Under the pieces are notes generated by a model. The model was not told where the DNA came from, did not search any database, and was given only the letters and a program-made list of their open reading frames with translations. Made by a program: the position numbers and the translations under genes. DNA of 39,156 nucleotides, taken from positions 1-39,156 of the forward strand of contig JAFSSK010000075.1 of the NCBI GenBank assembly GCA_017451045.1, given 5' to 3'. Positions 352-32,710 of this stretch are shown one piece after another. Each line of letters begins with the position of its first letter. The stretch's first letter is position 1. Source of the DNA: Clostridia bacterium (GTDB lineage Bacteria; Bacillota; Clostridia; Oscillospirales; CAG-272).

Positions 352-1440
352 ATGAAACTGCTGCAAAAGATCCTGGATTTTATCAAGCGCCTGTTCAGCG
401 GCGCCGGCTCCATTCGCATGGGCAAAAACATCGGTGTCGACCTCGGCACCTGCACGGTCCTCATCTATGAGCAGGACAAGGGGATCGTCCTGACGGAACC
501 GTCGGTCGTGGCGATGGACACGACGACCGGGGAGATCCTCCGGATCGGTTCGGAAGCAAAGGATATGCTGGGCAGGACGCCCGGACATATCAGCGCGATC
601 AGACCATTGCGGGACGGCGTCATCAGCCAGTACGAAGTGACGCTGAAGATGCTGCACTATTTCATGAACAAGGCCTGCGGAAATCTGTTCTTCCCGCCGC
701 GCGTCATGATCTGCGTTCCGTCCGGCGTGACGGAAGTGGAGGAGCGCGCCGTCATCGACGCGGCCAAGCACGCAGGCGCGGACAAGGTCTACCTGATCGA
801 GGAACCGGTCGCGGCCGCGCTGGGGGCCAACCTGAACATCATGAAACCGGTCGGTAACATGGTCATAGACATCGGCGGCGGAACGACGGACATCGCGGTC
901 ATCTCCATGGGCGGCGTCGTCGTGTCCGAGTCGATCAAGACGGCGGGCAACGAATTCGATACGGCGCTGGTACACTACGTCCGCAGACAATACGGCGTGA
1001 TGATCGGCGAAAAGATCGCCGAAGAGGTGAAGATCCGGATCGGGGCCGTCTATACGTTGGATAAGGAACTGGTGACGGAAGTGAAGGGGCGGAGCCTCGA
1101 CCAGGGACTTCCCCAGACCGTTACGCTGAGTTCCAAAGAAATGCTCGCCGCGTTCACCGATCCGCTGAAGAAGATCCTGGACGCAGTCTGCAACGTCATC
1201 GAACGGACGCCGCCCGAGCTGATCGGGGATATCCTGCGCAACGGCATCGTCATGACCGGCGGCGGAAGTCTTCTGCGCGGGCTGGACAGGCTGATCGAGC
1301 GGGTGACCGGCATCAAGACGTACGTGGCGGACCAGGCGGTGTCCTGCGTCGCGCTGGGTACTGGGAAGGCGCTTGAAAAACTGTCCACGATGACGGAGGG
1401 CGTCATCAATCTGTCCCAGGAACGGACACGGAGGCTGTGA
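352..1440 (+). CDS. mreB: MreB/Mbl-family rod-shape actin homologue
   Basis: A bacterial actin that forms membrane-bound filaments and guides the elongation peptidoglycan machinery. The 362-residue product shows the actin-fold signatures: phosphate-1 loop GVDLGT near residue 27, the EEPVAAALGA segment, phosphate-2 loop DIGGGTTDIAV, and the adenosine motif MTGGGSLLRGLD. The N-terminus MKLLQKILDFIKRLF looks like an amphipathic membrane anchor and makes the protein slightly longer than the usual 335-345 residues. ATG 352 is preferred over the upstream in-frame TTG at 331 because AAGGGGG lies just upstream at the right distance. It is not followed by mreC and mreD, so it may be a stand-alone MreB or Mbl paralogue. 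It heads a same-strand run with the next gene 5 bases away. Confidence 0.93.
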   Translation: MKLLQKILDFIKRLFSGAGSIRMGKNIGVDLGTCTVLIYEQDKGIVLTEPSVVAMDTTTGEILRIGSEAKDMLGRTPGHISAIRPLRDGVISQYEVTLKMLHYFMNKACGNLFFPPRVMICVPSGVTEVEERAVIDAAKHAGADKVYLIEEPVAAALGANLNIMKPVGNMVIDIGGGTTDIAVISMGGVVVSESIKTAGNEFDTALVHYVRRQYGVMIGEKIAEEVKIRIGAVYTLDKELVTEVKGRSLDQGLPQTVTLSSKEMLAAFTDPLKKILDAVCNVIERTPPELIGDILRNGIVMTGGGSLLRGLDRLIERVTGIKTYVADQAVSCVALGTGKALEKLSTMTEGVINLSQERTRRL

Positions 1441-1445
1441 GCAAC

Positions 1446-2315
1446 ATGAGTTTCGATAAAGAAAAGAAAAGACCGTCCGGTTATGGCCGGCAGGGAAACA
1501 AGGGCGGAGAGTTCCGCAGGGAAAACGCCGCAAGAAGACCGCAGGCCCGGGAAGCGGATCTGCCGTCCGAAGAAGAGTGCGGCAGCGGAGCCGTCATCGG
1601 AAGGAACGCCGTCAGGGAACTGCTGAAGTCCGGTAGGTCTGTCGACAAGATCCTCGTCAAACGGGGAGACCGCGAGGGATCCATCGTGGTCCTTGTCGCC
1701 GAAGCGATCGAGCGGAAGATACCCGTCATAGAAGTTGACAAGGCCAAACTGGACGAGATATCCGGTTTCGCCCCGCACCAGGGGATCGTGGCGATGGCCG
1801 CGGAAAAAGAATACTGCTCCGTCGAGGACATCCTCCAAATCGCCGCAGAACGCGGAGAGCCGCCTTTTTTGATCCTGGCGGACGGGCTGACGGATCCGTA
1901 CAATCTCGGCGCGGTCATCAGAAGCGCGGAAGCATGCGGCGCCCACGGGCTGATCATACCCAAGAGACGATCGGCAGGACTCACGCCGCTCGTTACGAAG
2001 GCTTCAGCCGGAGCCATCGAGCATCTTGCCGTCGCGAAAGTCGCCAATCTGGCCAACACAGTGCGCGAACTGAAAGAGAAGGGCGTTTGGGTGTTCGCGG
2101 CGGAAGCCGGCGGGGAGGACTACAGGAAAGTGGATTTCCGCGGCCCCTGCGCGATCATACTCGGAAGCGAAGGGAACGGCGTTTCGGATATCCTGAAGAA
2201 GAGCAGCGACAGGATCGTTTCCATCCCGATGTACGGGCATGTCAATTCATTCAACGTTTCCGCGGCTGCAGCCATACTGCTGGCGGAAGCGGCGCGGCAG
2301 CACCATTCAGACTGA
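1446..2315 (+). CDS. rlmB: SpoU/TrmH-family RNA 2'-O-methyltransferase (RlmB-like)
   Basis: A 289-residue methyltransferase predicted to transfer methyl from S-adenosylmethionine to a ribose 2'-OH, probably in 23S rRNA. A basic disordered stretch covers residues 1-45. A SpoU substrate-binding domain follows (GRNAVRELLKSGR through HQGIVAM), then the knotted SPOUT domain with all three motifs: NLGAVIRSAEACG, IILGSEGNG, and IPMYGHVNSFNVSAAAA. The last is normally SLNVS, so the Phe is a small variation. ATG 1446 is chosen because GGAGG at 1430-1434 is 11 bases upstream; a GTG at 1437 overlapping the mreB stop is possible but only 2 bases from that site. Family is certain; the RlmB or TrmH substrate is inferred. 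Confidence 0.9.
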   Translation: MSFDKEKKRPSGYGRQGNKGGEFRRENAARRPQAREADLPSEEECGSGAVIGRNAVRELLKSGRSVDKILVKRGDREGSIVVLVAEAIERKIPVIEVDKAKLDEISGFAPHQGIVAMAAEKEYCSVEDILQIAAERGEPPFLILADGLTDPYNLGAVIRSAEACGAHGLIIPKRRSAGLTPLVTKASAGAIEHLAVAKVANLANTVRELKEKGVWVFAAEAGGEDYRKVDFRGPCAIILGSEGNGVSDILKKSSDRIVSIPMYGHVNSFNVSAAAAILLAEAARQHHSD

Positions 2316-2354
2316 TCGGTACTGATTATTCTTGCGAAAGGAGGCCGGGTTCAA

Positions 2355-5300
2355 ATGGCCAAGCACCAGAGCAAAAAAAGCCAGAGACAGGAAACCATCG
2401 ATATGCTGAACCAGCTGAAGGCCTCCTTCAGCCGTCCGAACGGGCAGCAGAAAGAAGACAAGGAAAAAGAAAGCAAGGTCGACCAGGCATTTGACAACTA
2501 TCTTGCCTCCCTTCTCGGAAAAATGGATGAGGAAAGCGGGACAGGCGCCAAGGGCGAGCCGGAAAAGAAAGAAACCTATACCGCCGCCGATTTTGAACTG
2601 GAAGAAGAGAGCACGGAAGAAGATCTGAAAGCGGAGCAGGCTGATGCAAAGAAGCCGGACGAACCCGTGAAAGAAGATGAAGAGGTTTCCGTTGAAGAGA
2701 CGCCCGTTGAAGAGACGGAAGAACCCGAAGAGGAACCGGTAGAAGAATCCGAAGAGGAACCGGTAGAAGGACCCGAAGAGGAACCGGTAGAAGGACCCGA
2801 AGAGGAACCGGTAGAAGAATCCGAGGAGGAACCGGTAGAAGAATCCGTCGAGGGATCCGAAGAAGAACCTGAGGAAGACGGTACCCATACCGTTGCCGAG
2901 TCTTATGCGGATGAAGAGGAACAGGATGCCGCAGCTGAGCAGGAAGAGAAAAGCGCTGATGAGCCGGAGCCTGAGATCCCGCCAGAGGAAGATCAGATAT
3001 CTGATCCCGAAGAAACAGATATAAAAGACGGGGCTGAAGAAGAGCCCGATGAAGAGCCCGAGAAAGAACTCGAGGAAGAAGCTGAAGAAGAACCTGCGGA
3101 GTCGGCAGAAGAGACGCCCGAAGAGGAACCGGAAGAAGCACCCGAAAAGGCAGAAAAAGAATCAGAAGAAGTATCTGCCGCTGCGGATACGGCCGTTCCC
3201 GCCCGGGAAATGTCACAGCTGAAGCAGGATGACGGATTCATGTCCGGACCGATCGAAGAGGAAGAGATCGAAGAAACTGCCGGTGACGAAGGGTTCATGT
3301 CATCCGCGACAGATGAGGAATACTGGCCGGACGATGAGGATACGCAGCTGTCGATCACGTTCGACGACGAGGAACTGGAATATGTCGGGTTCATCCTTCC
3401 CATCAAGGCGGAAGACTCCGAATTTTTCAAGCCCAAGGAAGACGAGGAACAGGAAGACTACCTGCAGGGGTGGGAAATGATCTCCGCAGAAGCCGCTAAA
3501 AAAGCGGAAAAGACAAAGCCTTTGCCTGATCCTCAAAAAGACAAATCAAACCGCGCGAACCGTGTGAAGGGGCAGATCTCCGAAGCGCTCCTCAGCCAGA
3601 CGCGCGTACACCCCAAGACGAAGGACCTGTCCCAGGAGGACATGGAGCTGATGATGGATCTGGGGTATGAGAATGAACTGGCTGCCATGCACGGTCAGAA
3701 GATCGTCGAGGAACTGAAAAAGGGCGGACAGTTCGACCCCGCCACATGGCCTCCGGTCACGGAACAGTACAGAAAAGAGGAGTACGTCAGCCGCAGTCAG
3801 GAAACAGATTTCAAGCGGCGATACCATAAATACTATCTGAACGGCATCATCCGTCTGGTCGGGACGATCGTGCTGACGCTTGTGCTGCTGGCCTATGAAT
3901 CTCTCAGCCTGTTCGGCATATCCAAGATCTGGGTGTTCGACAGGGATCTCAATCCCGCCCTGTTCGCGATAGCAGGGCTGCAGGTCATCGCGATCCTGAC
4001 CCTTCTTTCCGGCAGAACGCTTCTGAAAGGATTCAAACAGATATTCAGGCTGCGGCCGTCCACCCCGTCGCTGACAGTCCTTGTGCTTTTCGTGACGGCC
4101 ATCTATGATATCGGGATGCTTTTCGCACCCGAAGGCGTGATCGTTCTGCAGATCAATACGATAGCGGCCATCAGCGTCCTGCTCCTGACAATCAGGGACC
4201 TGATGAACCTGAAATGCGAAATCAACTCGTTCAGCGTCCTGGCGAACGACCGCCAGAAATTCATCGCCGAGCCGTGCAGCGAGCAGTTATCCGGATCCGA
4301 ACCGGTGTCCGAGAACGGGAAGACGCGTCAGCGTTTCCGCGTGCGGCCTGCCGTGTTCGTCAGGAACTTCAGAAGCAGGTTCCACGAATCCGAAAACTAT
4401 GACTCGACGCTGCTTTATATGATTCCGGTCCTGATCCTTGTCTGCATCATGGTCGGCATCGTGCGGGTGGCCATGGGCGGCACCCTGTACGACGGGTTGA
4501 ACTGCGTGATCCTGACGATGCTCTGCGCGACGCCGATCTCGACCGTTCTGTACCAGGCTTTCCCGTGGTTCCGGGCCGAATATGAGCTTGCCAAAGCGGA
4601 CAGCACGATCATCGGGCGGAATTCTCCGGCAAAATACGCCGGGAAGTCGCTTTTGCTGTTTGAGGACAATCAGGTCCTGGCGGCCAGGAGCTGCACGGAG
4701 ATCCGGATGGACAAGGATTTTGACGTGACGCTTGCCATGAGCAGGCTCCGCAAGGTGTTCGACACCCTTGGCGGCGCGTTGGCTCATATGATGGACCGCT
4801 CCAGAGTCCCGTCCAGTCCCGAGCCGTGCAGGATCGTCAACGTCGGTTCGAACAGCATCCAGGCAGAGATCGTCGGGAAGACCACCATCGTGGTCGGCAC
4901 GGCGAAAGCGCTCAGAAAACTCAAGGATATCAGCATCCCGAACGAATTCGACGAGCGGCTGAGAAGGGCAAGATACGACACAGGTCTTTTATATATCCTG
5001 TTCGACTGGAAACTGAAGCTGATCCTGGAAGTCGAATACGGCGTGAAGCAGGGATTCATGAATCCGGCGGACGGCATGGAACTGTTCGGACTGCACGCCG
5101 GGATTCTCAGCTACGACCCGAATCTCAGTGCGGGATTCGTCGAGAACTGTTTCGGCCCGCGCGCCATGCCGATGCTGGTCATGAAACATAAAATGTACCA
5201 GGAGATCCCGGATGACGAGCAGTCCTCCGCATGTCTTGTCTCCTGCGGGAACCCGAGCAACATTTCCAAGGCGCTCGTTGCCTGCAACGCGCTGGAGCAT

Positions 5301-5684
5301 ATCAAACGGATCGGCGGGTACGCCCGGTGGATCTCCATGGCCCTCGGCGCACTGCTGGGACTGAGCCTGTCGCTGTTCGATTTCCTCGGAGACTATTCGA
5401 CGGCCCTGATCATCCTGTTCCAGATCATCTGGATGTCTCCCGTGTTCGTTCTGAACAAGCTCTACCTGTTCAAGGAGAATGCGCCGGATCTCCCGCGCAC
5501 GTCAGTCCTTCTGAAGACGCCTGACGAGCCGAAGGAAGAACCGCCCGCCAAGCAAAAGGACAGGGACAAGCGCGGCGCAAAGTCGAAGGCAGGGAAAAAC
5601 AACGGCAAAAAGGCAAAGATCGAAAATGAGCGAAACAGAAAAACAGGCAATAAACAGAAATACGCTTCTAAAAAGCGTCGATAA
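2355..5684 (+). CDS. Degenerate P-type (P1B-like) ATPase with acidic repeat N-terminus
   Basis: An 1109-residue membrane protein of unknown function; start ATG 2355 follows AAAGGAGG. Residues about 80-290 are Glu/Pro-rich and partly repetitive. Eight predicted membrane segments fall in a 4+2+2 pattern: about 498-519, 535-555, 572-590, 594-615, 687-708, 714-735, 992-1012 and 1016-1038. This is the P1B metal-ATPase layout. Residues 760-960 resemble the P/N domains: a LLLF strand where DKTGT should follow, then GKTTIVVGTAKALRKL like the ATPase segment after the HP motif, then a DWKLKLILEVE strand. Catalysis looks lost. The DKTGT position reads EDNQV (E770), the CPC-type ion motif reads CATP (724-727), and I see no TGE, HP or GDGxND. 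The C-terminus is strongly basic and overlaps the next gene by 59 bases. Homology is inferred from layout and local similarity. Confidence 0.7.
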   Translation: MAKHQSKKSQRQETIDMLNQLKASFSRPNGQQKEDKEKESKVDQAFDNYLASLLGKMDEESGTGAKGEPEKKETYTAADFELEEESTEEDLKAEQADAKKPDEPVKEDEEVSVEETPVEETEEPEEEPVEESEEEPVEGPEEEPVEGPEEEPVEESEEEPVEESVEGSEEEPEEDGTHTVAESYADEEEQDAAAEQEEKSADEPEPEIPPEEDQISDPEETDIKDGAEEEPDEEPEKELEEEAEEEPAESAEETPEEEPEEAPEKAEKESEEVSAAADTAVPAREMSQLKQDDGFMSGPIEEEEIEETAGDEGFMSSATDEEYWPDDEDTQLSITFDDEELEYVGFILPIKAEDSEFFKPKEDEEQEDYLQGWEMISAEAAKKAEKTKPLPDPQKDKSNRANRVKGQISEALLSQTRVHPKTKDLSQEDMELMMDLGYENELAAMHGQKIVEELKKGGQFDPATWPPVTEQYRKEEYVSRSQETDFKRRYHKYYLNGIIRLVGTIVLTLVLLAYESLSLFGISKIWVFDRDLNPALFAIAGLQVIAILTLLSGRTLLKGFKQIFRLRPSTPSLTVLVLFVTAIYDIGMLFAPEGVIVLQINTIAAISVLLLTIRDLMNLKCEINSFSVLANDRQKFIAEPCSEQLSGSEPVSENGKTRQRFRVRPAVFVRNFRSRFHESENYDSTLLYMIPVLILVCIMVGIVRVAMGGTLYDGLNCVILTMLCATPISTVLYQAFPWFRAEYELAKADSTIIGRNSPAKYAGKSLLLFEDNQVLAARSCTEIRMDKDFDVTLAMSRLRKVFDTLGGALAHMMDRSRVPSSPEPCRIVNVGSNSIQAEIVGKTTIVVGTAKALRKLKDISIPNEFDERLRRARYDTGLLYILFDWKLKLILEVEYGVKQGFMNPADGMELFGLHAGILSYDPNLSAGFVENCFGPRAMPMLVMKHKMYQEIPDDEQSSACLVSCGNPSNISKALVACNALEHIKRIGGYARWISMALGALLGLSLSLFDFLGDYSTALIILFQIIWMSPVFVLNKLYLFKENAPDLPRTSVLLKTPDEPKEEPPAKQKDRDKRGAKSKAGKNNGKKAKIENERNRKTGNKQKYASKKRR
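2733..2852 (+). repeat. Five 24-bp tandem repeats coding an acidic octapeptide
   Basis: The sequence GAACCGGTAGAAG recurs at 2733, 2757, 2781, 2805 and 2829, exactly 24 bases apart. Each unit encodes an eight-residue block of the type EPVEESEE or EPVEGPEE. The copies differ by a few bases, and the last reads GTC where the others have GAA. The repeats are in frame inside the pseudo-ATPase gene, so copy-number change would lengthen or shorten the acidic arm without a frameshift. Confidence 0.9.
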
Positions 5685-7503
5685 GCCGGGAAGGTACTCC
5701 GGCGGGGAATACGGCCAGATCATCAAGGACAAGGACCGGGTGAAAGCCAGGTTCGCTTTCCTGTTCCCGGACACGTACGAGATCGGCATGTCCAACCTCG
5801 GCGTCAGGATCCTCTACGGTGCGCTCAACAGGTTCGACGACATCTGGTGCGAGCGTGTCTACGCGCCGTGGGTCGACATGGAGGACAAGATGCGGCAGCT
5901 GGGGCTGCCGCTGACGGCGCATGAATCGAAGGACCCGGTCAGGGATTTCGATTTCCTCGGGATCACGCTGCAGTACGAGATGAGCTATACGAACGTTTTG
6001 AACTGCATCGACCTTTCAGGGATCCCGCACTTTGCGTGCGACAGATCCGAGGACGATCCGCTGGTCATCGGCGGCGGGCCCTGTGCGTACAACCCAGAAC
6101 CCGTAGCGGACTTTTTCGACCTGTTCAACATCGGCGAGGGAGAGGAGATGCTCCCCTCCATCGTCCATCTGTACATCGAAATGAAAGAGGAAGGCAGATA
6201 CACGAGAAAAGCTTTCCTTCACGAGGCCGCGGCGACCATACAGGGCGTTTACGTCCCCTCGCTCTATGAGGTGAGCTATAACGCGGACGGGACCATCGCC
6301 GCCTACAAGCCGCTTTATGACGACATCCCCAAAAGCGTCCGCAAGCAGATCGTGGAAGATATGGATACCGCCTATTTCCCGGAGCACGTTGTGATGCCGT
6401 ACATCGAGACGGTACACGACAGGATTATGCTGGAGGTGTTCCGCGGGTGCATCCGCGGTTGCCGGTTCTGCCAGGCGGGGATCATCTACCGTCCCGTGCG
6501 CGAGAAGACGCCGGAATGTCTTGACAGGCAGGCAAAATGCCTTTACGATTCCACGGGATACGACGAGATCTCGCTGACCTCTCTTGCCATCGACGACTAT
6601 TCGCAGCTGGACGAGCTGACGGACCAGCTGATGAGCTGGACGAACGAGCGGAAGATCAGTCTGTCGCTCCCGTCCCTTCGCGTGGATTCCTTTACGAAGG
6701 AACTGATGGAAAAGATCGTGTCGGTGAGGACCTCCTCCCTGACTTTCGCGATGGAGGCCGGCACGCAGCGGCTGCGCGACGTGATCAACAAGAACGTGAC
6801 CGAGGAAGAGCTGATGCGGGCGATGAACGTCGCGTTCACCGGCGGCAAGAGCCAGGTGAAGCTGTATTTCATGCAGGGACTCCCCACGGAGACACAGGAA
6901 GACCTGGCAGGCATTCCCGCGCTGGCGTCCAGGGTCCTTGATCTGTTCTACGCGACGCCGGACAGGCCGAAAGGGAAACCGCCGAAAGTCACGATCAGCG
7001 TTTCCCCGTTTATCCCGAAACCGTTCACGCCGTTCCAGTGGGAACCGCAGGATTCGCTGCAGACCATGCGGGACAAGCAGGACTACATCGGGCAGCTGGT
7101 GCATGACCCGAAGATCAGATACGAGCATCACGAGGCGCAGATCTGCCGGATCGAAGCAGTCCTTGCGCGGGGAGACAGGCGTATCGGCCGCGCGCTGGAA
7201 CTGGCCCAGAAAAAGGGATTCCGCTTCGACGCATGGAGCGAGCATTTCGACTACGACAGATGGATCTCCGTCTTCCGCGAGGCGGGCATCGATCCCGATT
7301 TCTACGCCTGCCGCAGATGGGGAACGGACGAGGTCCTCCCCTGGGACGTGATAGACTGCGGGGTGTCCAAGGCGTTCCTTTTGCGCGAGCGCGAAAAGGC
7401 TTATGCGCAGAAGACTACGCCCAATTGCCGGCAGCAGTGCTCCGGCTGCGGCGCGAACAAACTGGGAGGTGTCCGGTCATGCTGCCCCAAAGCCAGATCC
7501 TGA
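5626..7503 (+). CDS. B12-binding/radical SAM protein, TIGR03960 type
   Basis: A 625-residue radical SAM enzyme of unknown reaction. The N-terminal part (about 40-200) resembles the B12-binding-like region of this family: GMSNLGVRILYGALN, then a GGGPCAYNPEP loop and GEGEEML. The radical SAM barrel carries C275-x3-C279-x2-C282 (RGCIRGCRFCQAG) for the [4Fe-4S] cluster that cleaves S-adenosylmethionine. The C-terminus is cysteine-rich (CRQQCSGCGANK). ATG 5626 lies 59 bases inside the preceding gene. No closer start codon precedes the conserved LLKSVDKPGRY segment, so this long overlap seems real. In many Firmicutes this gene stands next to the TIGR03936 gene, as here, usually near rng and rplU; those are absent from this locus. 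Confidence 0.9.
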   Translation: MSETEKQAINRNTLLKSVDKPGRYSGGEYGQIIKDKDRVKARFAFLFPDTYEIGMSNLGVRILYGALNRFDDIWCERVYAPWVDMEDKMRQLGLPLTAHESKDPVRDFDFLGITLQYEMSYTNVLNCIDLSGIPHFACDRSEDDPLVIGGGPCAYNPEPVADFFDLFNIGEGEEMLPSIVHLYIEMKEEGRYTRKAFLHEAAATIQGVYVPSLYEVSYNADGTIAAYKPLYDDIPKSVRKQIVEDMDTAYFPEHVVMPYIETVHDRIMLEVFRGCIRGCRFCQAGIIYRPVREKTPECLDRQAKCLYDSTGYDEISLTSLAIDDYSQLDELTDQLMSWTNERKISLSLPSLRVDSFTKELMEKIVSVRTSSLTFAMEAGTQRLRDVINKNVTEEELMRAMNVAFTGGKSQVKLYFMQGLPTETQEDLAGIPALASRVLDLFYATPDRPKGKPPKVTISVSPFIPKPFTPFQWEPQDSLQTMRDKQDYIGQLVHDPKIRYEHHEAQICRIEAVLARGDRRIGRALELAQKKGFRFDAWSEHFDYDRWISVFREAGIDPDFYACRRWGTDEVLPWDVIDCGVSKAFLLREREKAYAQKTTPNCRQQCSGCGANKLGGVRSCCPKARS

Positions 7504-8232: not shown

Positions 8233-8262
8233 TTTTTGCGTCTGTATAGGTGAACGCAAAAA
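8233..8262. repeat. Perfect 9-bp inverted repeat before the vWA lipoprotein gene
   Basis: TTTTTGCGT (8233-8241) and ACGCAAAAA (8254-8262) form a perfect stem with a 12-base loop just upstream of the lipoprotein ribosome binding site. There is no T-tract after the stem on either strand that would make a convincing terminator. It could be an operator or an mRNA 5' structure. Confidence 0.5.
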
Positions 8263-8282
8263 AAGACAGGAGGTCTTTTGAC

Positions 8283-9620
8283 ATGAAAACAAGCACTTTG
8301 AAAATTCTGAAAATCACGGCCGTGGCGCTTCTGCTGGTCGTCGCGTGCCTTGTCCAGGCCGCATGCTCCGGGCTGGCGCCTGAAGGCGGAGCCCCCTCAT
8401 TCAAACCTTCCGCAAGAGACGATGCAGCCAGTATTTCGGGTTCCAAATCCGAAGGCGGCCCTGAAATGTGGAGCGGAGAGGTGATGGACGGCGAAGGCAT
8501 GGGCGGAGAAGCGTACTTGGGTGACGTGGATGTCGGCGGCGGGGAAGAACCGCCCGAAAACGATTTCCAGTCCGGCACGCTGACCGCTGGCGAGTGGAGC
8601 GATCTTCTGAACTGGGATTTCTGGTCCAAACATCTTTTGAAAAACGAAATTTACGCTTTGGCCGAAGGCTGGAAAATCATCGCGAGAGACAGGATCTGCG
8701 TGACAGTCCTTAACGGCGGGGAGCCTGTCCGCAACGTAAAGGTCGAACTGGCGGACGAACAGGGACAGACGGTCTGGGCATCCGTAACGGATCACAAGGG
8801 ACGCGCCTACCTGTTCTACAACCTTGACGGAAAAACGGCACAGACGAAGGAAGGCTTGTCAGTCCTTGTGAACGGGCAGAAACAGGAATGGGACGGAAGC
8901 GATTCGATCACCGTCCAGACGGGACTCGCATCACCGCAGCTCGAACTCGATCTTTTGCTGATGGTCGACACGACAGGTTCCATGAGCGACGAACTGACAT
9001 ATATCCAGAAGGAACTGGAATCGGTCCTGAAGCGCATCAACAGCGAAATAGGCGTCAGCCTTAAGATCAGCGTGAACTTCTACAGGGACGACGGCGACGA
9101 ATACGTCGTCAGATCCTATGATTTCACAACGGTGGAGGCTGCCATGAGCCAGCTGGCCAAAGAATACGCGGACGGCGGCGGAGATTATCCGGAAGCCGTT
9201 CACAAGGCGCTTGAAGACGCCGTATCCAACCACAGTTGGCGGCAGGGAAGCGTCAAGATCATGTTCTTCGTACTGGACGCTCCCGCTCACCAGGATCAGA
9301 AAGGCGTCTGCGAAAGTCTTATGAGTTCTGTCTCGGCCGCGTCTGCGGCAGGTATCAGGATCATCCCTGTGGCCGCAAGCGGCGTGGACAGTTCCACGGA
9401 GATCATGCTCCGCACGTTCGCCATTCTTACCGGCGGCACATACACGTTCCTGACGGACGACAGCGGATACGGATACAGCCATCTGGAGCCGTCGGTCGGG
9501 GATTATGAGGTCGAAAAGCTGAACGACCTGATGGTCAGACTGGTGCTGGAATACTGCGGAAAGGCTCCGGCAAAGCCGGCGCCTCAGGAACAGACCCAGG
9601 ATCAGAGCCAGGATCAGTGA
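8283..9620 (+). CDS. vWA-domain lipoprotein
   Basis: A 445-residue secreted protein, probably anchored to the outer face of the membrane. Residues 1-28 form a lipoprotein signal: a basic start, a hydrophobic core, and Cys22 (LVVAC) or Cys28 (VQAAC) as lipidation site. Residues about 30-110 are Gly/Ser-rich and probably disordered. A small beta-domain follows (CVTVLNGGEPVRNVKVEL), of the type found in carboxypeptidase-regulatory-like folds. The von Willebrand A domain starts near residue 222; its MIDAS motif is DTTGSMSDE with D229 first, and GGGDYPEAV is the second loop. The tail is Gln-rich (QEQTQDQSQDQ). ATG 8283 is chosen because AGGAGGT lies eight bases upstream. Adhesion or metal-dependent binding is the likely role; the ligand is unknown. 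Confidence 0.87.
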   Translation: MKTSTLKILKITAVALLLVVACLVQAACSGLAPEGGAPSFKPSARDDAASISGSKSEGGPEMWSGEVMDGEGMGGEAYLGDVDVGGGEEPPENDFQSGTLTAGEWSDLLNWDFWSKHLLKNEIYALAEGWKIIARDRICVTVLNGGEPVRNVKVELADEQGQTVWASVTDHKGRAYLFYNLDGKTAQTKEGLSVLVNGQKQEWDGSDSITVQTGLASPQLELDLLLMVDTTGSMSDELTYIQKELESVLKRINSEIGVSLKISVNFYRDDGDEYVVRSYDFTTVEAAMSQLAKEYADGGGDYPEAVHKALEDAVSNHSWRQGSVKIMFFVLDAPAHQDQKGVCESLMSSVSAASAAGIRIIPVAASGVDSSTEIMLRTFAILTGGTYTFLTDDSGYGYSHLEPSVGDYEVEKLNDLMVRLVLEYCGKAPAKPAPQEQTQDQSQDQ

Positions 9621-24626: not shown

Positions 24627-24656
24627 TTGACAAATCCTATATATATGACTTATAAT
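24627..24656 (+). promoter_or_regulatory. Promoter of the lysine operon
   Basis: A consensus TTGACA (24627-24632) and TATAAT (24651-24656) with an 18-base spacer. The expected start near 24663 falls just before the first stem of the lysine riboswitch, as is usual for these leaders. Confidence 0.85.
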
Positions 24657-24662
24657 ATCCGT

Positions 24663-24870
24663 GCCGATAGAGGTGCATCGCATCATGAGTATCTGCAGCG
24701 TACAAGCCCGCCGGGGGTGCTGCAGGGAAAGGGGCGCTTTGCCGAAGACGGGGAACTGGCAGACCCCGATCTGGCAGCCGGAAACAAGATTCCCGCTGCT
24801 GTCGCAGCAATGCGGAGAGCTATCCAGACAATTAAAAACCAGGAGATCCCTGTTTCTGATTGTATCGGAT
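24663..24870 (+). promoter_or_regulatory. Lysine riboswitch (L box)
   Basis: The leader of the lysine biosynthesis operon carries L-box core elements: GATAGAGGTGC (24666-24676), ATCATGAGTA, GGGAAAGG with GCTTTGCCGAAG, and GCAGCAATGCGGAGAGC before the closing CTATC. P1 is GATAG (24666-24670) with CTATC (24820-24824). The alternative fold is readable: ATCC (24822-24825) plus ACAAT (24828-24832) can pair with ATTGT (24859-24863) plus GGAT (24867-24870). This uses the 3' half of P1 and the 5' edge of the terminator stem. Lysine binding should stabilise P1, release the terminator and shut off dapA expression. Confidence 0.92.
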
Positions 24871-24904
24871 GGTTGTTGATTGGCAACTATCTTTTTCTTT
24901 TTTT
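24868..24904 (+). terminator. Riboswitch-controlled terminator before dapA
   Basis: GATGGTTG (24868-24875) pairs with CAACTATC (24884-24891), with one G-U pair and an eight-base loop, followed by a T-rich run broken by a single C (24892-24904). The dapA ribosome binding site GGAGGG begins at the very next base. Confidence 0.88.
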
Positions 24905-24914
24905 GGAGGGAAAC

Positions 24915-25808
24915 ATGGAAACTGTTTTCAAAGGAGTGGGAACGGCGATCGTAACGCCGATGGATGCGCAGGGGAATGTCGATTACGAGGCGTTCGCCCG
25001 GCTGATCGACTGGCAGGTGGCCAGCGGCGTCAACGCGATCATCGTGGCCGGAACGACAGGCGAGGGGTCGACCCTGTCTGACGAGGAGCACTGTCAGCTC
25101 ATCAAATACTGCGTGGACAAGGTCGGCGGAAGGATCCCCGTCGTAGCGGGGACCGGATCCAACGATACCGATTACGCGATCCACCTGACAAAATTCGCAT
25201 GCGAGGCGGGGGCCGACGCCATGCTGCTGGTCACCCCCTATTACAACAAGGCGACGCAGCGGGGTCTCATCGAGTCCTTCACGGCGATCGCGGACGCCAG
25301 CACGAAGCCATGCATCCTGTACAACGTCCCGTCAAGGACGGGCTGCAACCTGTTGCCAAAGACCGCGCTGGCTCTGAGCGAGCATCCGATGATCACGGGC
25401 ATCAAGGAAGCCAGCGGGAACATTTCCCAGATCGCCGAGCTGATGTCGCTCGTGCAAGGGAAGATGGACGTCTATTCGGGGAACGACGATCAGATCGTGC
25501 CGATCCTGGCGCTTGGCGGCGCCGGCGTGATCTCGGTCCTTTCGAACGTTGTGCCGAAACAGACGGTTGCCATATGCGACAGCTTCTTCGCGGGAGATAT
25601 CGCGAAAAGCCGCAAACTGCAGCTGAGTCTTTTGCCGCTGATAAACGCTCTGTTCTGCGAAGTGAACCCGATCCCCGTGAAAGCCGCCACGGCAGCCATG
25701 GGATACGGGCAGAACAAACTGCGTCTGCCGCTGACGTCGATGGAAAAGGCCAACGAGGAGCATCTGTTGGCGCTGATGCGCGAAGCGGGCGTCGCGTTCG
25801 GAGGATAA
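24915..25808 (+). CDS. dapA: 4-hydroxy-tetrahydrodipicolinate synthase
   Basis: Condenses pyruvate and aspartate semialdehyde, the first committed step of lysine and diaminopimelate synthesis. The 297-residue product has normal length for this cytoplasmic tetrameric barrel. Motifs include VAGTTGEGSTLSDEE near residue 45, YNVPSRTGCNL with the catalytic Tyr and the Arg that binds the carboxylate, and GIKEASGN carrying the Schiff-base Lys. The ATG lies five bases after GGAGGG at the end of the leader terminator. It is the first gene of the riboswitch-controlled operon; the dapB start follows the stop by one base. A longer frame from 24627 runs through the promoter and riboswitch and is not the start. 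Confidence 0.97.
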   Translation: METVFKGVGTAIVTPMDAQGNVDYEAFARLIDWQVASGVNAIIVAGTTGEGSTLSDEEHCQLIKYCVDKVGGRIPVVAGTGSNDTDYAIHLTKFACEAGADAMLLVTPYYNKATQRGLIESFTAIADASTKPCILYNVPSRTGCNLLPKTALALSEHPMITGIKEASGNISQIAELMSLVQGKMDVYSGNDDQIVPILALGGAGVISVLSNVVPKQTVAICDSFFAGDIAKSRKLQLSLLPLINALFCEVNPIPVKAATAAMGYGQNKLRLPLTSMEKANEEHLLALMREAGVAFGG

Positions 25809-25809
25809 A

Positions 25810-26562
25810 ATGAACATTCTTGTTTTTGGAGCCGCAGGGCACATGGGCCGGGAGGTCGCTGCAAAATGCGAAGAGCACTATGCCGGAGCCGTCTTGAGCG
25901 CCGGCGTCGATCTTATGCTGCCGGCGTCCGACAAGGCTGCACATCTATATAAAAGCCCCTTTGAGGTGACGGAGCCCGTCGACTGCATCGTCGATTTTTC
26001 CCACCACAGCGCGACGGCAGTCCTGCTGGATTACGCAGTAAAGAAAACTCTCCCCGTCGTTCTGTGCACGACCGGGCAGACGGAAGAGGAGAACGGGCTG
26101 ATCGAAAAAGCCTGTGCGAAGATCCCGGTGTTCCGTTCTGCTAACATGTCGTTGGGGATCGCCCTTTTGGTAAAGACCGCGAAACAGGTCGCCGCGGCCA
26201 TGCCGGACGCGGATATTGAGATCGTCGAGACCCACCACAACAGGAAACTGGACGCGCCGTCAGGAACGGCGCTGATGCTGGCAAGATCTCTGCAGGAAGT
26301 CCGCGAAGGCTCAACGCTCGTATGCGGAAGGAACGGCATGGCGAAAAGGGAGAAGAACGATATCGGCATCTCCTCCGTCCGCGTCGGCAACGTGGTGGGG
26401 ATCCACGAGGTGATCATCGGGACCGCTTCCCAGACCATCACGCTGAAGCACGAGGCGCACAGCCGGGCGCTGTTTGCCGAAGGCGCGCTTTGCGCGGCGG
26501 AATTCCTTTGCGGGAAGAAGCCGGGCCTTTACAACATGAATTCAATGATAGAAAAGATGTGA
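25810..26562 (+). CDS. dapB: 4-hydroxy-tetrahydrodipicolinate reductase
   Basis: Reduces hydroxy-tetrahydrodipicolinate to tetrahydrodipicolinate with NAD(P)H, the second step of the pathway. The 250-residue protein starts with a Rossmann motif (ILVFGAAGHMGREV). It carries the catalytic ETHHNRKLDAPSGTA segment with the His pair and Lys, and the SVRVGNVVGIHEV segment. The CTTGQTEEE loop is also typical. It begins one base after dapA and has no independent promoter, so it depends on read-through of the riboswitch. The length is at the short end of the family, as in other Clostridia. Confidence 0.96.
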   Translation: MNILVFGAAGHMGREVAAKCEEHYAGAVLSAGVDLMLPASDKAAHLYKSPFEVTEPVDCIVDFSHHSATAVLLDYAVKKTLPVVLCTTGQTEEENGLIEKACAKIPVFRSANMSLGIALLVKTAKQVAAAMPDADIEIVETHHNRKLDAPSGTALMLARSLQEVREGSTLVCGRNGMAKREKNDIGISSVRVGNVVGIHEVIIGTASQTITLKHEAHSRALFAEGALCAAEFLCGKKPGLYNMNSMIEKM

Positions 26563-26567
26563 CATAT

Positions 26568-27863
26568 ATGATTGCGACCAATCTGGAGAACAGGAACGGA
26601 AAACTGTTTTTCGCGAGAACCGATACGGCAGAGCTGATCCGCGCATTCGGATCCCCGCTTTACGTGATGGACGAGGGCAGGATCCGCGCCAACATGCGGA
26701 TATACCGCGATTCGATGGCGGCCGGGTTCGGTGGCGGCGCTATGCCGCTTTACGCCAGCAAAGCCCTTTCCTTTAAGCGGATCTACGAGATCGCCCGTGA
26801 AGAGGGCATCGGTATCGACGTGGTCTCGCAGGGCGAGATCCATACGGCCGAGCGGGCAGGATTCCCGATGGAAAAAGCTTATTTCCACAGCAACAACAAA
26901 ACGGATGAGGACATCGCGTACGCCATGGACAAAGGCGTAGGCTATTTCGTGGCCGACTGCGGGGAAGAGGTGGACGCCGTTGAAAAAGAGGCGGCCAGGC
27001 GAGGCATGAGGCAGAAGATCCTTCTGCGGCTGACGCCCGGGATAGACCCGCACACCTATGAAGCGGTATCGACCGGGAAGGTCGACTCGAAATTCGGCTC
27101 CGCCATCGAAACGGGCCAGGCGGAGGCTATCACCGAAAAGGCGCTCGGCTGTCCACACATCGAGCTGGCCGGGTTCCACTGCCACGTGGGCTCCCAGGTG
27201 TTCGTTTCAGACGTATATATGCGGGCTGCCCGCGTGATGCTGACATTCATCAAAAACATGAAGGACAGGCACGGGTATGCCGCGTCCGAACTGGATCTGG
27301 GCGGCGGATACGGCGTCCGCTACACGGAAGCCGATCCCGTCATCGACATCGCAAAGCAGATAGGATCGCTTTCCGCTTTCATGAAAGAACTGTGCGGTGA
27401 ACTCGGCATCGCTCTGCCGTCCGTGCGGCTCGAGCCCGGCAGGAGCATCGTCGCTGACGCGGGGCTTACCTTGTACCGCGTCGGATCCGTCAAAAGGATC
27501 CCCGGATACAAGAACTACGTGTCGGTCGACGGCGGCATGACGGACAACCCGCGCTACGCCCTTTACCGGTCGCGCTACACCGTGCTGGCTGCCGAGAAGC
27601 TTGACGAGAAGGAGACTTTCGTCTGCTCTGTCGTCGGCAGGTGCTGCGAGAGCGGGGACATCATCCAGGAGAACGTGAGCCTCCCGGCATCCATTGCAAG
27701 GAACGACATACTGGCCGTCCTGACGACGGGCGCATACAACTATGCCATGGCGTCCAACTACAACCGGATCTGCAGACTGCCCGTCGTCATGATCAAAGAC
27801 GGCAGCCCCTACGTCGCCGTCAGGCGCGAAACGCCGGACGATCTGATCCGGAACGATCTGTGA
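26568..27863 (+). CDS. lysA: Diaminopimelate decarboxylase
   Basis: Last enzyme of the lysine pathway, decarboxylating meso-diaminopimelate to lysine with pyridoxal phosphate. The 431-residue fold-III decarboxylase shows the PLP Lys in LYASKALS, IGIDVVSQGEIHTAERAG, FHCHVGSQ, ELDLGGGYGVRY, LEPGRSIVADAG and the intersubunit CESGDI loop. ATG 26568 starts five bases after the dapB stop; the ribosome binding site is weak, so translation is probably coupled. A long upstream extension of the frame overlaps dapB and is not used. Its place inside the operon, between dapB and dapF, fits control by lysine. Confidence 0.96.
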   Translation: MIATNLENRNGKLFFARTDTAELIRAFGSPLYVMDEGRIRANMRIYRDSMAAGFGGGAMPLYASKALSFKRIYEIAREEGIGIDVVSQGEIHTAERAGFPMEKAYFHSNNKTDEDIAYAMDKGVGYFVADCGEEVDAVEKEAARRGMRQKILLRLTPGIDPHTYEAVSTGKVDSKFGSAIETGQAEAITEKALGCPHIELAGFHCHVGSQVFVSDVYMRAARVMLTFIKNMKDRHGYAASELDLGGGYGVRYTEADPVIDIAKQIGSLSAFMKELCGELGIALPSVRLEPGRSIVADAGLTLYRVGSVKRIPGYKNYVSVDGGMTDNPRYALYRSRYTVLAAEKLDEKETFVCSVVGRCCESGDIIQENVSLPASIARNDILAVLTTGAYNYAMASNYNRICRLPVVMIKDGSPYVAVRRETPDDLIRNDL

Positions 27864-27871
27864 GGAAAGAA

Positions 27872-28720
27872 ATGTTGAAATTCACCAAGATGCACGGCAT
27901 CGGCAACGATTATATCTACATCAACGGGTTCGAGCAGCCGGTGGACGATCCGGCGGGCCTTTCCGTGAAACTGTCCGACAGGCATTTCAGCATCGGCGGG
28001 GACGGGATCGTCCTGATCCTGCCGTCGGCGTACGCGGACTTCCGGATGCGCATGTTCAACGCGGACGGAAGCGAAGGGAAGATGTGCGGGAACGCCACGA
28101 GGTGTATCGGGAAATACGTTTACGAAAAAGGCATGACGGACAAGACGGATCTCACGCTTGAGACGCTGTCCGGCATCAAGAAGCTGCATCTCGGCCTGGC
28201 GCAGGACGGGACGGTTTCGTCCGTGCGCGTCGGGATGGGAAAGGCCGAATTCGCGGCGGAAAAGATCCCCGTGGACGCGGGCAAGGACGCCGAGGTTATC
28301 GGCAAAGAATTCAGCTGCGCGGGAAAAGACTGGCGCATCAGCTGCGTCAGCGTCGGCAACCCGCACTGCGTCGTTCCGACGGAGGAAGACATCCGGGGGA
28401 TGGATCTGGACCGCATCGGTCCGTGCTTCGAGCATCATGCGATGTTCCCGGAGCGCGTGAATACGGAATTCGTCAATTTCATTTCCCCCACCGAACTGTC
28501 CATGCGCGTGTGGGAGCGGGGCAGCGGCGAGACGATGGCATGCGGCACCGGCGCCTGCGCCGTGGTCTGTGCTGCGGTAAAACTGGGGATCTGCCGCCCG
28601 GACGCCTGGGTCACCGTGCACCTGCGCGGAGGAGATCTGAAAATACTTGTCACAAAGGACTGGCAGATCGAGATGGAAGGGCCCGCGGCCTTTTCGTTCG
28701 AGGGCGAAGTCAGCGTCTGA
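27872..28720 (+). CDS. dapF: Diaminopimelate epimerase
   Basis: Converts LL- to meso-diaminopimelate, needed for both lysine and peptidoglycan. The 282-residue protein has the pair of catalytic cysteines typical of the two mirrored domains: MFNADGSEGKMCGNATRC in the first half and GETMACGTGACAVV in the second. The start FTKMHGIGNDYIYI and the SVGNPHCV segment are also diagnostic. The ATG follows GAGGAAAG eight bases after the lysA stop. It acts directly after DapL, which is encoded next. Confidence 0.97.
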   Translation: MLKFTKMHGIGNDYIYINGFEQPVDDPAGLSVKLSDRHFSIGGDGIVLILPSAYADFRMRMFNADGSEGKMCGNATRCIGKYVYEKGMTDKTDLTLETLSGIKKLHLGLAQDGTVSSVRVGMGKAEFAAEKIPVDAGKDAEVIGKEFSCAGKDWRISCVSVGNPHCVVPTEEDIRGMDLDRIGPCFEHHAMFPERVNTEFVNFISPTELSMRVWERGSGETMACGTGACAVVCAAVKLGICRPDAWVTVHLRGGDLKILVTKDWQIEMEGPAAFSFEGEVSV

Positions 28721-28735
28721 CAGGAAGGAACGATC

Positions 28736-29920
28736 ATGAGCAGGATCAATCACAACTACGATAAACTGAAACCGAACTACCTGTTTTCGGACATTGCCAG
28801 AAAAGTGAAGGAATACCAGGCGGAGCATCCCGAGGCATCCATCATCAGGATGGGCATCGGCGACGTCACAAGACCGATCTGCGAAGCCGTCACGCGCGCC
28901 ATGAGCGAAGCGGTGCTTGAGCAGAGCAGGCAGGAGACCTTCCACGGATACGGCGACGAGCAGGGATACGCGTTTTTACAGGACGCGCTCAAAAACTACT
29001 ATGCCTCCTTCGGCGTAGAACTGGAAAGAGATGAAATATTCGTTTCGGACGGCGCCAAGAGCGACCTGGGGAACATCCTGGATCTGTTCGACGCCTCCAA
29101 TACCGTGCTGGTGCCTGATCCGGTCTATCCGGTCTATGCGGACACCAACGTGATGGACGGCAGGAAGATCGTCTACCTGCAGGCCAACGAGGAGAATGAA
29201 TTTCTCCCCATGCCGGACGGAACCGCCGAGGCGGATCTGATCTACATCTGCTCGCCGAACAATCCGACAGGGGCGGCGTATACGCGCGCCCAGCTTGCCG
29301 ACTGGGTGAGGTTCGCTCGGGAGCACAGAGCAGTTATCCTGTTCGACGCGGCATATGAGAGTTTCATCGTCGACAGCGACATTCCGCATAGTATATTTGA
29401 ACTGGAAGGCGCAAAAGAATGCGCAATCGAATTCGGTTCGTTCTCCAAGATGGCGGGCTTTACGGGGACGAGGTGCGGCTATACGGTCGTTCCGAAGGCG
29501 CTTGTCCGGGAGAGCATGGGACTCAACGGCATGTGGCGCCGCAGGCAGACGACGAAATTCAACGGCGTCGCCTACGTCGTCCAGCGGGGCGCGGCGGCGG
29601 TCTTTACGGAAGAGGGACAGCGGCAGATCAGAGAAGGCATCGCCTACTACCAGGAGAACGCCAAGATCATCACAAACGCGCTGGAAAGCTGCGGGATAAA
29701 GTATTTCGGCGGCCGCAACAGCCCGTACATCTGGCTGAAGTGCCCCGGCGGCATGCGGTCCTGGGACTTCTTCGACAAGCTCCTTACACAGGCAAACGTC
29801 GTTGGAACGCCCGGCGAGGGGTTCGGCAAAAACGGAGAAGGCTATTTCCGGCTTACATCTTTTTCAACGCATGAGCTGACCGCAGAGGCCATGACGAGGC
29901 TGAAAAGCATCCTTCACTGA
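28736..29920 (+). CDS. dapL: LL-diaminopimelate aminotransferase
   Basis: A fold-I PLP aminotransferase that makes LL-diaminopimelate from tetrahydrodipicolinate and glutamate in one step, bypassing the succinylase or acetylase branches. The 394-residue protein shows RMGIGDVTRPI, TFHGYGDEQGYAFLQ, the CSPNNPTGAAYT loop, the Asp of ILFDAAYESF, and the PLP Lys in SFSKMAGFTGTRCGYT. Conserved C-terminal SPYIWLKCPGG and YFRLTSF follow. It is the fifth lysine gene in the run, so the segment encodes the whole path from aspartate semialdehyde to lysine except lysC and asd. GGAAGGA lies just upstream of the ATG. Confidence 0.96.
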   Translation: MSRINHNYDKLKPNYLFSDIARKVKEYQAEHPEASIIRMGIGDVTRPICEAVTRAMSEAVLEQSRQETFHGYGDEQGYAFLQDALKNYYASFGVELERDEIFVSDGAKSDLGNILDLFDASNTVLVPDPVYPVYADTNVMDGRKIVYLQANEENEFLPMPDGTAEADLIYICSPNNPTGAAYTRAQLADWVRFAREHRAVILFDAAYESFIVDSDIPHSIFELEGAKECAIEFGSFSKMAGFTGTRCGYTVVPKALVRESMGLNGMWRRRQTTKFNGVAYVVQRGAAAVFTEEGQRQIREGIAYYQENAKIITNALESCGIKYFGGRNSPYIWLKCPGGMRSWDFFDKLLTQANVVGTPGEGFGKNGEGYFRLTSFSTHELTAEAMTRLKSILH

Positions 29921-29960: not shown

Positions 29961-31481
29961 ATGCGCTATGTTTATGACGTTGTCGTGGTGGGCGCCGGGA
30001 ACGGCGGCCTCAGCGCGGCATCGAAACTCGCACAGGCGGGGCTGAAGGTAATCATGCTCGAAAAGCACAATCTGCCGGGAGGCGTCGCGACAAGCTTAGT
30101 CCGCGGCAGATTTGAATTTGAGGCGTCCCTGCACGAACTGTGCGACGTGGGGACGGAAGAGCAGCCCCTTGCCGTGCGGAACATTTTCAAAGGACTCGGC
30201 GTTGACGCGCCGATGGTGAACGAAAAGAACCTCTTCCGGGCGATCGTGACGGGGGAGGACGGATACGACGTGACGCTGAAGGCTGGGGAGGCTTTGTTCG
30301 AAGAATCTTTGGAAGCCGCCTGCCCGGGAAGCGGGAAAAGCATCAAAAAACTGAAGGATCTGCTTGCAAAGACGCGCGAGGCGCTGGCGTACAACGACAG
30401 GATGAACGGCAGGCCGAACAAGCTGGTCATGATCTTCAAGTACAGCAAATTCCTGATCGCGGCCTCTCACTCCGTGGACGAGGTCCTGCGGTCGCTCGGC
30501 TTTTCGAAGAAGGCAAGATCCGTGCTGGAGACATACTGGCTGTATCTGGGCGTCCCCGCGGACGAGCTGAACGCTTTTCATTATTTCCAGATGTTGCGCG
30601 GCTATATCGACAGCGGCGCGGGCGTGCCGGAGCACAAATCCTACGGGCTGTCCCTGGGACTTGCCGAGTCCGTCCTGAAAAACGGCGGAGAGATCCGGTA
30701 CAACACCGAGGTGGACAGATTCCTTTACGATGACGACAAGCGGGTGATCGGCGTCGCGGCAGGGGGAGACGAGTACTATGCGAAGCAGGTCGTTTCCAAC
30801 GTGATCCCGCACAACGTTTTCAATATGTCCGAGAGAAGAAACACGGCAGAAAAGGACAGAAAACTCCTCAACGCGCGCAGATTCGGCCTGTCTTTCGTAT
30901 GCCTTTACGTGGGCCTTGACCGCAGCGCCGAGGAACTCGGCATCAAAGACTATACGGTGTTCGTCGCCAAGAAGGACTCGTCCCGCACGCAGTACGATGA
31001 CGACGCGGACCTCGGCGTGTACGTGGTGAACTGCCTGAACGTGGCGGTCCCGGACGCGACGCCAGCCGGGACATGCAGCATGTTCTTCTCCATCCCCGTC
31101 TTCAGCGACAAGCTGATGAACGGCGTGGAGCCTGAAAACTATAAGCAGTTCAAGAGCGAGATCGCGAAACGGTATATCGCGGACTACGAGCAGGTGACGG
31201 GCATCCGCATCAGCGACTGCATCGAAGAGATATCCGTCGCGACCCCCGTCACGTTCGCCCGCTATTTCGGTTCGCCGAACGGGACGGCATACGGATACAG
31301 GCTGTCCAGATGGGACGGCCTGATGGCAAGGATCCTCAGCGCCGCCGATGAATTCAAGATCAAGGGGCTCACGTTCTGCGGCGGGCATACCGCTTCCGGA
31401 GACGGGTTCGGCGTATCCTACGCGTCCGGGCTCGAGGCCGCGGACAGGGTGCTGGCGCTTTTGAAGGAGGAAGGCGTATGA
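29961..31481 (+). CDS. Phytoene-desaturase-like FAD oxidoreductase
   Basis: A 506-residue flavoprotein of the CrtI / carotenoid-isomerase superfamily. The N-terminal dinucleotide fold is VVVGAGNGGLSAASKLAQAG, ending in an acidic residue (MLEKHNLPGG), and the C-terminal FAD segment is FCGGHTASGDGFGVSYASG. No carotenoid genes are nearby, so a carotenoid role is unlikely; related proteins in anaerobes are unassigned reductases or desaturases. It begins 40 bases after dapL with AGAGGT upstream and no visible terminator, so it may be in the lysine riboswitch operon. Its stop overlaps the start of the next, electron-transfer gene by four bases (ATGA), which suggests the two work as a pair. Confidence 0.85.
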   Translation: MRYVYDVVVVGAGNGGLSAASKLAQAGLKVIMLEKHNLPGGVATSLVRGRFEFEASLHELCDVGTEEQPLAVRNIFKGLGVDAPMVNEKNLFRAIVTGEDGYDVTLKAGEALFEESLEAACPGSGKSIKKLKDLLAKTREALAYNDRMNGRPNKLVMIFKYSKFLIAASHSVDEVLRSLGFSKKARSVLETYWLYLGVPADELNAFHYFQMLRGYIDSGAGVPEHKSYGLSLGLAESVLKNGGEIRYNTEVDRFLYDDDKRVIGVAAGGDEYYAKQVVSNVIPHNVFNMSERRNTAEKDRKLLNARRFGLSFVCLYVGLDRSAEELGIKDYTVFVAKKDSSRTQYDDDADLGVYVVNCLNVAVPDATPAGTCSMFFSIPVFSDKLMNGVEPENYKQFKSEIAKRYIADYEQVTGIRISDCIEEISVATPVTFARYFGSPNGTAYGYRLSRWDGLMARILSAADEFKIKGLTFCGGHTASGDGFGVSYASGLEAADRVLALLKEEGV

Positions 31482-32710
31482 CGGACAAAAAACGCGAAGG
31501 ACGCCGGGGACTCCGGCTGAGCATCGGGAATTTCCTGAAGATCCTGCCGATCAGAAAGAAAAAGATAGAGGACGCCCCGGATTCGGACGTCCGTAAAACG
31601 GGTTCCTACAAGCCGAACGAGCTTGCCGGGATCATCCATCCGGGCCTGCAGCACCTGATCGTGACGCAAGTGAAGGATCTTACCGAAGACGTAAAGCTGT
31701 ACAGGCTCGAGGCGGACAGAGAAAACGGCTGTGAAAGACTTGCGCCGTTCGGAGCCGGCTCATACCTGACGTTCGAGATGACGGTCGGCTCCGGCCGCTG
31801 CAGCCGTCCCTATTCCATCTGCTCCTCGCCGAAAGACGCGGAGAAAGGATTTTACGAGATCGCCGTCCGCCGCACGCCCGGAGGCGTCGTTTCGAACTAT
31901 ATCCACGAGAACTGGAAAGAGGGAACGCGCGTGACGGCCCAGGAACCCGCGGGGGAATTCTTATATGAACCCGTCAGGGACGCCAAGCACGTGATCTGCC
32001 TTGCCGGCGGGACCGGCATCACGCCTTTTCGGTCCATGGTAAAGGCTGTCCTTGAGGGCAGCGAGGATTTCAGGATCGACCTGATATACAGCGCAAGGAA
32101 AGAGAAGGAACTGCTTTTCAGAGAGGAACTGGACGGCGCTGCCGGAACGGATGAAAGGATCAGCGTCCGGTACGTGCTCAGCGACGAGGAAAAGGCGGGA
32201 TACGGGACCGGTTTCATCACGAAGGACATGGTGGCGCAGGCGGCGCAGGACGGAGAGCCCTATTCCGTATTCATCTGCGGCCCGCAGAAAATGTACAGGT
32301 ATCTGGACGGGGAACTCAAGGGACTTGACCTGCGGAAAAAATATGTGAGACGGGAACTGTTCGGGGAGATCAGGGACCTTTCGGACGAGGAGGATTACGT
32401 CCGTCCGGGCGCCGACGAGTTCACGCTGACCGTCAGCCAGAACGGACAGCGGACGGCCATCAGGTGCCGCCGGGACGAATCGCTCCTTTGCGCGATGGAA
32501 AGGGCCGGCATCGCCGCCCCGTCCAGGTGCAGGAGCGGCGTCTGCGGGTTCTGCCATTCCAAACTCGTAAACGGGTCCTGCTATACGCCCGCGCAGAGCG
32601 ATTTCAGGCGGGAGGCGGACAGGCTGTACGGATACATCCATCCGTGCTGTGCCTACCCCTTGTCGGATCTGGAGATCGACGTCCCCGCTGCCGGAAAAAT
32701 AAAGATATAA
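31478..32710 (+). CDS. Ferredoxin-reductase-like FAD/NAD protein with 2Fe-2S domain
   Basis: A 410-residue electron-transfer protein. Residues about 50-300 form a ferredoxin-NADP reductase module: RPYSICSSP binds FAD, LAGGTGITPFRSM binds the nicotinamide nucleotide, and FICGPQKMYRYL closes it. Residues about 315-405 form a plant-type 2Fe-2S ferredoxin domain with SRCRSGVCGFCHSKL and a distal Cys in HPCCAYPLS. The N-terminal 45 residues are basic and extra to the family. The ATG overlaps the previous stop as ATGA. It could pass electrons from NAD(P)H to the flavoprotein before it; the reaction is unknown. A bidirectional terminator follows the stop directly. Confidence 0.9.
   Translation: MTDKKREGRRGLRLSIGNFLKILPIRKKKIEDAPDSDVRKTGSYKPNELAGIIHPGLQHLIVTQVKDLTEDVKLYRLEADRENGCERLAPFGAGSYLTFEMTVGSGRCSRPYSICSSPKDAEKGFYEIAVRRTPGGVVSNYIHENWKEGTRVTAQEPAGEFLYEPVRDAKHVICLAGGTGITPFRSMVKAVLEGSEDFRIDLIYSARKEKELLFREELDGAAGTDERISVRYVLSDEEKAGYGTGFITKDMVAQAAQDGEPYSVFICGPQKMYRYLDGELKGLDLRKKYVRRELFGEIRDLSDEEDYVRPGADEFTLTVSQNGQRTAIRCRRDESLLCAMERAGIAAPSRCRSGVCGFCHSKLVNGSCYTPAQSDFRREADRLYGYIHPCCAYPLSDLEIDVPAAGKIKI

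Follow-up and report, generated by a model that had tools for sequence, protein, structure and literature searches.

Loss of pump motifs and conservation of rewritten loops in a P1B-ATPase-like membrane protein encoded beside rlmB in an order of Clostridia

The phosphorylated aspartate is the defining feature of P-type ATPases, and the locus considered here raises the question of what a protein may do that has the body of such a pump without this residue. The window, i.e., the whole analysed stretch of 39,156 nucleotides from a Clostridia bacterium, carries an open reading frame near mreB in which a sequence-only reading had seen the helix layout of P1B metal ATPases with every catalytic motif lost, and for which it had proposed a non-transporting scaffold or regulator. 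The frame at 2355-5684 is confirmed as real and the central claim of that reading stands; the neighbours are as it had described them, and are mreB, rlmB, TIGR03960 and TIGR03936/DUF2344:

331-1440: mreB, neighbour of the pseudo-ATPase gene in the window
1437..2315, + strand: rlmB, 23S rRNA (G2251-2'-O)-methyltransferase (NCBIfam TIGR00186, 214 bits against a cut-off of 160)
2340..2344, + strand: Shine-Dalgarno sequence GGAGG of the pseudo-ATPase gene, read directly, 10 nt 5' of the ATG
2355..5684, + strand: pseudo-P1B-ATPase gene, an ORF of 1109 aa with order-wide orthologues and a predicted fold
5626..7503, + strand: TIGR03960 radical SAM protein (909 bits)
end at 8213: TIGR03936/DUF2344, downstream neighbour in the window

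The first 59 nt of the TIGR03960 ORF (5626-5684) coincide with the end of the pseudo-ATPase gene, where the basic tail is encoded.

The window protein by itself gave no noteworthy Pfam, NCBIfam or PDB sequence match in single-sequence scans and did not reach any curated family score of Pfam or NCBIfam, so that its homology is visible only by profile. A family profile built from 41 orthologue core sequences matches the copper P1B-ATPase CopA (3rfu) best in the PDB, with an E-value of 3.5e-27, followed by further P1B pumps and then by the Na/K- and H/K-ATPases, and weak matches are also obtained with individual members, 30/41 to TIGR01525 and 20/41 to CopA (best 4.5e-17). The AlphaFold model of window residues 414-1046 (pLDDT 88, pTM 0.84) has the P1B-ATPase fold that the earlier reading had wished to see checked, and its helices, at residues ~480-629, 684-747 and 969-1038, reproduce the 4+2+2 layout described from the letters. 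Foldseek ranks CopA (4bbj/3rfu) first for this model at E 3.6e-15, and VIA-align superposes it on 3rfu with Z 21.3 over 478 residues at 8.9 Å, a high rmsd that is taken to reflect domain movement. The N-domain-like part aligns with the N domain of the Menkes protein (Z 12.6, 2.7 Å, 120 residues), and the relative L099, modelled in full length, returns the same top structural matches as the window model. Since the profile match to CopA is joined by an independent fold match, the resemblance is not due to chance. In a tree of family and pumps the family comes out on a long branch as one clade (support 0.95), while the rooted pumps do not form a single group. The parts of the window protein are as follows:

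2391..2435, + strand: N-terminal short helix (ETIDMLNQLKASFSR), the window form of S/T-x-[DE]-[DE]-[LI]-L-x-x-[LFY], from the family motif and the L099 model
2577..3344, + strand: acidic, presumably disordered arm, from composition, a tandem repeat and the pLDDT of the L099 arm
3627..3719, + strand: juxtamembrane helical motif DMELMMDLGYENEL..., in ~40 members, helices with pLDDT ~80
3792..4241, + strand: first four membrane helices, residues ~480-629 (P1B MA, MB, TM1, TM2), from model helices and pump alignment
4242..4403, + strand: remnant replacing the actuator (A) domain, without TGE, from the alignment
4404..4595, + strand: membrane helices 5-6 with conserved P727 and P737 (88% and 90% in the family), CPC replaced
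4662..4676, + strand: EDNQV in place of DKTGT (family FDDk[DN]VFP) at the end of the first P-domain strand, from alignment and model
4725..4973, + strand: N-domain-like part with LGGA for SEHP and SNS for GxG, from the alignment and the Menkes N-domain match
5109..5126, + strand: SYDPNL for TGDN (family TxDPNI, D 98%), from the alignment
5187..5243, + strand: stretch across the ~35-residue deletion that removes GDGxND, a gap in 100% of 154 members
5259..5468, + strand: membrane helices 7-8, model helices at residues 969-1007 and 1014-1038
5496..5681, + strand: basic C-terminal tail, in few members only

The loss of the catalytic and metal-site motifs is family-wide, as judged from a joint alignment of 154 members with 20 pumps, the latter recognised by their DKTGT. 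This motif is absent from all 171 recovered members (0/171), and thus the homologues with an intact copy that the earlier reading had asked about are not among them; the window has EDNQV (residues 770-774) at the corresponding place, as that reading had said, and in the window model E770 (model residue 357) sits at the strand end where the catalytic aspartate belongs. The GDGxND region of about 35 residues is deleted in 154/154 aligned members and TGE is likewise without an aligned counterpart, its G column being a gap in 98% within a shortened A domain, which bears out the reported absence of both. SEHP has become GGPL in the family, with G in 77% at the H column and H outside the five commonest residues, and its position in the window reads LGGA, in agreement with the reported lack of HP. 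TGDN is replaced by TxDPNI, and the P-domain lysine column is unconserved among the 154 members. The change of CPC into CATP had also been read correctly, as CPC aligns with the TPI of CATPI and the proline alone is retained; in the family this proline is kept in 88%, and cysteine is outside the five commonest residues at both columns.

The loops which have taken the place of these motifs are conserved in their own right, as FDDk[DN]VFP, GGPLxDvF and TxDPNI. Across the 154 members D771 is kept in 88%, F775 in 90%, D921 in 98%, N923 in 86%, Y895 in 97% and G806/G807 in 84/77%. The catalytic column itself holds D in 52% of members, and the following one in 88%. Among the regions compared, mean entropy is lowest in the P-domain pieces, below that of both the membrane helices and the A remnant. 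The rewritten P-domain loops are the best-conserved cytosolic part, and the site looks repurposed; conservation of the new motifs, together with dN/dS values of 0.03-0.2, argues for repurposing rather than decay. The earlier reading had asked whether EDNQV and CATP are conserved as such; neither is, and the window holds a divergent form of the family's FDDk[DN]VFP, its first P-domain loop reading EDNQVLA.

The acidic arm described earlier is present in the window, where 477 residues with 35% Asp+Glu precede the core and a 24-bp unit is repeated in tandem 6.3 times at 2718-2869. An arm of no fewer than 100 residues precedes the core in 145/153 members, and acidic residues outnumber basic ones in 137 of these 145. 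In the full-length model of L099 the arm is mostly disordered (residues 72-195 with pLDDT below 50) apart from a short helix near the N-terminus with pLDDT ~81. A loose form of this helix motif was found in 65/171 members against 1.3% of shuffled N-termini, an excess that is an upper estimate, the pattern having been written after viewing the sequences. Its strict form is absent from 1027 neighbouring ORFs of more than 150 aa, and hence no shared hub can be named. The basic tail, which had been regarded as a further addition, holds for the window (70 residues, net charge +14) but not for the family: a tail of at least 20 residues occurs in only 5/153 members, four of them clearly basic, and as a defining part it is ruled out. 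Of the two additions, only the long and usually acidic arm at the N-terminus holds across the family.

The spread of the family was assessed at several depths. A simple protein search gave a match in 46/59 genomes, the window's own genome included, and the window protein is 19-28% identical to its relatives. In the order-level sample the profile matched 147/147 genomes at E 1e-5, but this threshold also admits genuine pumps; a cut at about E 1e-40 divides full-length members from partial pump matches, which cover positions ~209-480 with E-values mostly between 1e-18 and 1e-30. With this cut a full-length member is present in 137/147 genomes of the order (counted from the result table) and in 112/117 of its good assemblies. 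Samples at class and phylum level yielded no member beyond the order, only partial pump-like matches. On these searches the family appears near-universal in its order and absent elsewhere among the genomes sampled. The dN/dS values, obtained among close pairs, indicate strong purifying selection. No description of the family was found in the open-licence papers searched.

The genomic surroundings are constant on one side. At 120 pseudo-ATPase loci rlmB was detected in 112, TIGR03960 in 87 and mreB in 9; rlmB is the direct upstream gene at most loci order-wide, with a median gap of ~32 nt. TIGR03960 is a neighbour chiefly within the window's own family, and outside it, in the same order, rlmB remains constant upstream while the downstream gene varies. 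The link to the cell envelope that had been drawn from mreB therefore finds no support, the conserved neighbour being rlmB, and it is rejected as a conserved feature. The linkage with rlmB may in turn reflect inherited gene order alone. In several of these other families of the order, at L164, L166, L167, L178, L189, L197, L198 and others, an EF-G-like GTPase, so called from the appearance of its N-terminal sequence only, replaces TIGR03960 directly downstream. One genome (G010) has two pseudo-ATPase copies, L053 and L054, with cores 83% identical and each with an adjoining rlmB, a pair in one assembly that represents either a duplication or a mixed assembly.

Elsewhere in the window, 8250-9620 codes for a protein that has a von Willebrand A domain and an N-terminus like that of a lipoprotein, and a lysine riboswitch (24660-24830; Rfam RF00168, 74 bits) heads a lysine/DAP operon at 24627-29920 comprising dapA, dapB, lysA, dapF and the gene for LL-DAP aminotransferase. 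Straight after this operon, at 29961-32710, the gene for a phytoene-desaturase-like FAD protein overlaps that for a PaaE-like ferredoxin reductase with a 2Fe-2S domain.

Compared with the P1B ATPases (CopA, ZntA; NCBIfam TIGR01525), the pseudo-ATPase shares the fold, the 4+2+2 helices, the helix 6 proline, the order of P and N domains and the N-domain segment G..a.vdG..v.vG. It differs in the absence of DKTGT, SEHP, TGE, GDGxND and CPC, in the shortened A domain and the deleted P-domain segment, and in the added long, mostly acidic arm; family scans found no N-terminal metal-binding domain of the P1B type. The nearest published parallel found is human TMEM94 (ERMA), for which a role as a pump is contested. 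It is P-type-like in architecture but lacks the TGES motif of dephosphorylation, and a cryo-EM study, which observed binding of a nucleotide analogue with micromolar affinity and detected no ATPase activity, argued that it is not a pump (PMC12134183), while a later paper reportedly argues the opposite (PMC13322241). TMEM94 differs from the pseudo-ATPase in being eukaryotic, in having ten helices and in standing nearest to SPCA instead of P1B pumps; the two are likened by architecture. Inactive rhomboid proteases, the iRhoms, are likewise a membrane enzyme fold kept under selection without catalysis, with a long cytosolic N-terminal arm and a function as adaptors; their fold is unrelated, and the likeness is one of analogy only.

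When established knowledge of P-type ATPases is applied to the motif loss, the Post-Albers pump cycle is almost certainly absent. An aspartyl-phosphate should not form without DKTGT and GDGxND, nor should one be dephosphorylated without TGE; the usual binding of ATP is probably absent too, with SEHP missing and GxG weakened, and the metal site CPC is gone. The N-like domain may, by analogy, bind ATP weakly, and the Asp-rich loop, with D at the catalytic column in about half of the members, could bind a metal ion or be phosphorylated otherwise. From this anatomy we infer, with the absence of ATPase activity and transport, a non-transporting pseudo-P1B ATPase that probably acts as a membrane-anchored scaffold or receptor. 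Derived from heavy-metal P-type pumps, it has retained the eight-helix membrane part, which would be the anchor, along with the P/N-domain-like cytosolic head, whose rewritten loops FDDk[DN]VFP and TxDPNI would serve as a conserved docking or ligand site, and the long, mostly acidic flexible arm with its short near-terminal helix would extend into the cytosol and recruit a partner. Because of the steady linkage with rlmB, the ribosome or rRNA-maturation machinery is the first place to seek this partner, and the protein is possibly connected with the ribosome. The more elaborate idea of a lineage-wide receptor built on a defunct copper pump is quite unlikely; in it, ribosome maturation or translation would be coupled to the membrane, the acidic arm and its terminal helix would recruit RlmB or ribosomes, and a ligand would be sensed at the former phosphorylation site.

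A purely sensory role, in which the old phosphorylation pocket binds a small ligand or divalent ion and the membrane part or arm changes and signals to a partner, would suit the finding that the best-conserved cytosolic residues are Y895 and those of the acidic P-domain loops where the active site used to be (D771, D921, N923), in pieces of lower entropy than the membrane helices or the A remnant. However, no ligand or output domain was recognised and the first loop is partly lost in the window protein (EDNQVLA), and we regard this role as unlikely, though worth keeping in mind. The shared fold, and the presence of pump-like partial matches in many genomes of the order, would also allow heteromers in which the protein assists or inhibits a genuine P1B pump; such a partnership is very unlikely, given that the gene adjoins rlmB instead of metal genes at nearly all loci examined.

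Highly improbable is a protein that was rewired yet remains active, as a transporter or HAD-type phosphotransferase, through the aspartates of FDDk[DN]VFP. The frequency of D at the catalytic column and the next position and the conserved prolines in helix 6 speak for it, but all members lack the Mg-binding GDGxND segment, the lysine column of the P domain is unconserved, and TGE and the nucleotide motifs are gone. As to local gene decay, a frameshift or an assembly error in this one genome, the first loop of the window copy is indeed more divergent than the family consensus; yet the 1109-aa ORF is open, orthologues throughout the order show the same losses and relatives are under purifying selection, so that decay is rejected and this explanation retains next to no probability.

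For the debate on TMEM94 the family provides a bacterial parallel that is tractable, and it calls for caution, in that such proteins may carry a metal-pump annotation. Its retention throughout the order without the phosphorylated aspartate, under strong selection and almost always beside rlmB, suggests that an ion pump's framework can serve a different purpose, one which this lineage has not given up.
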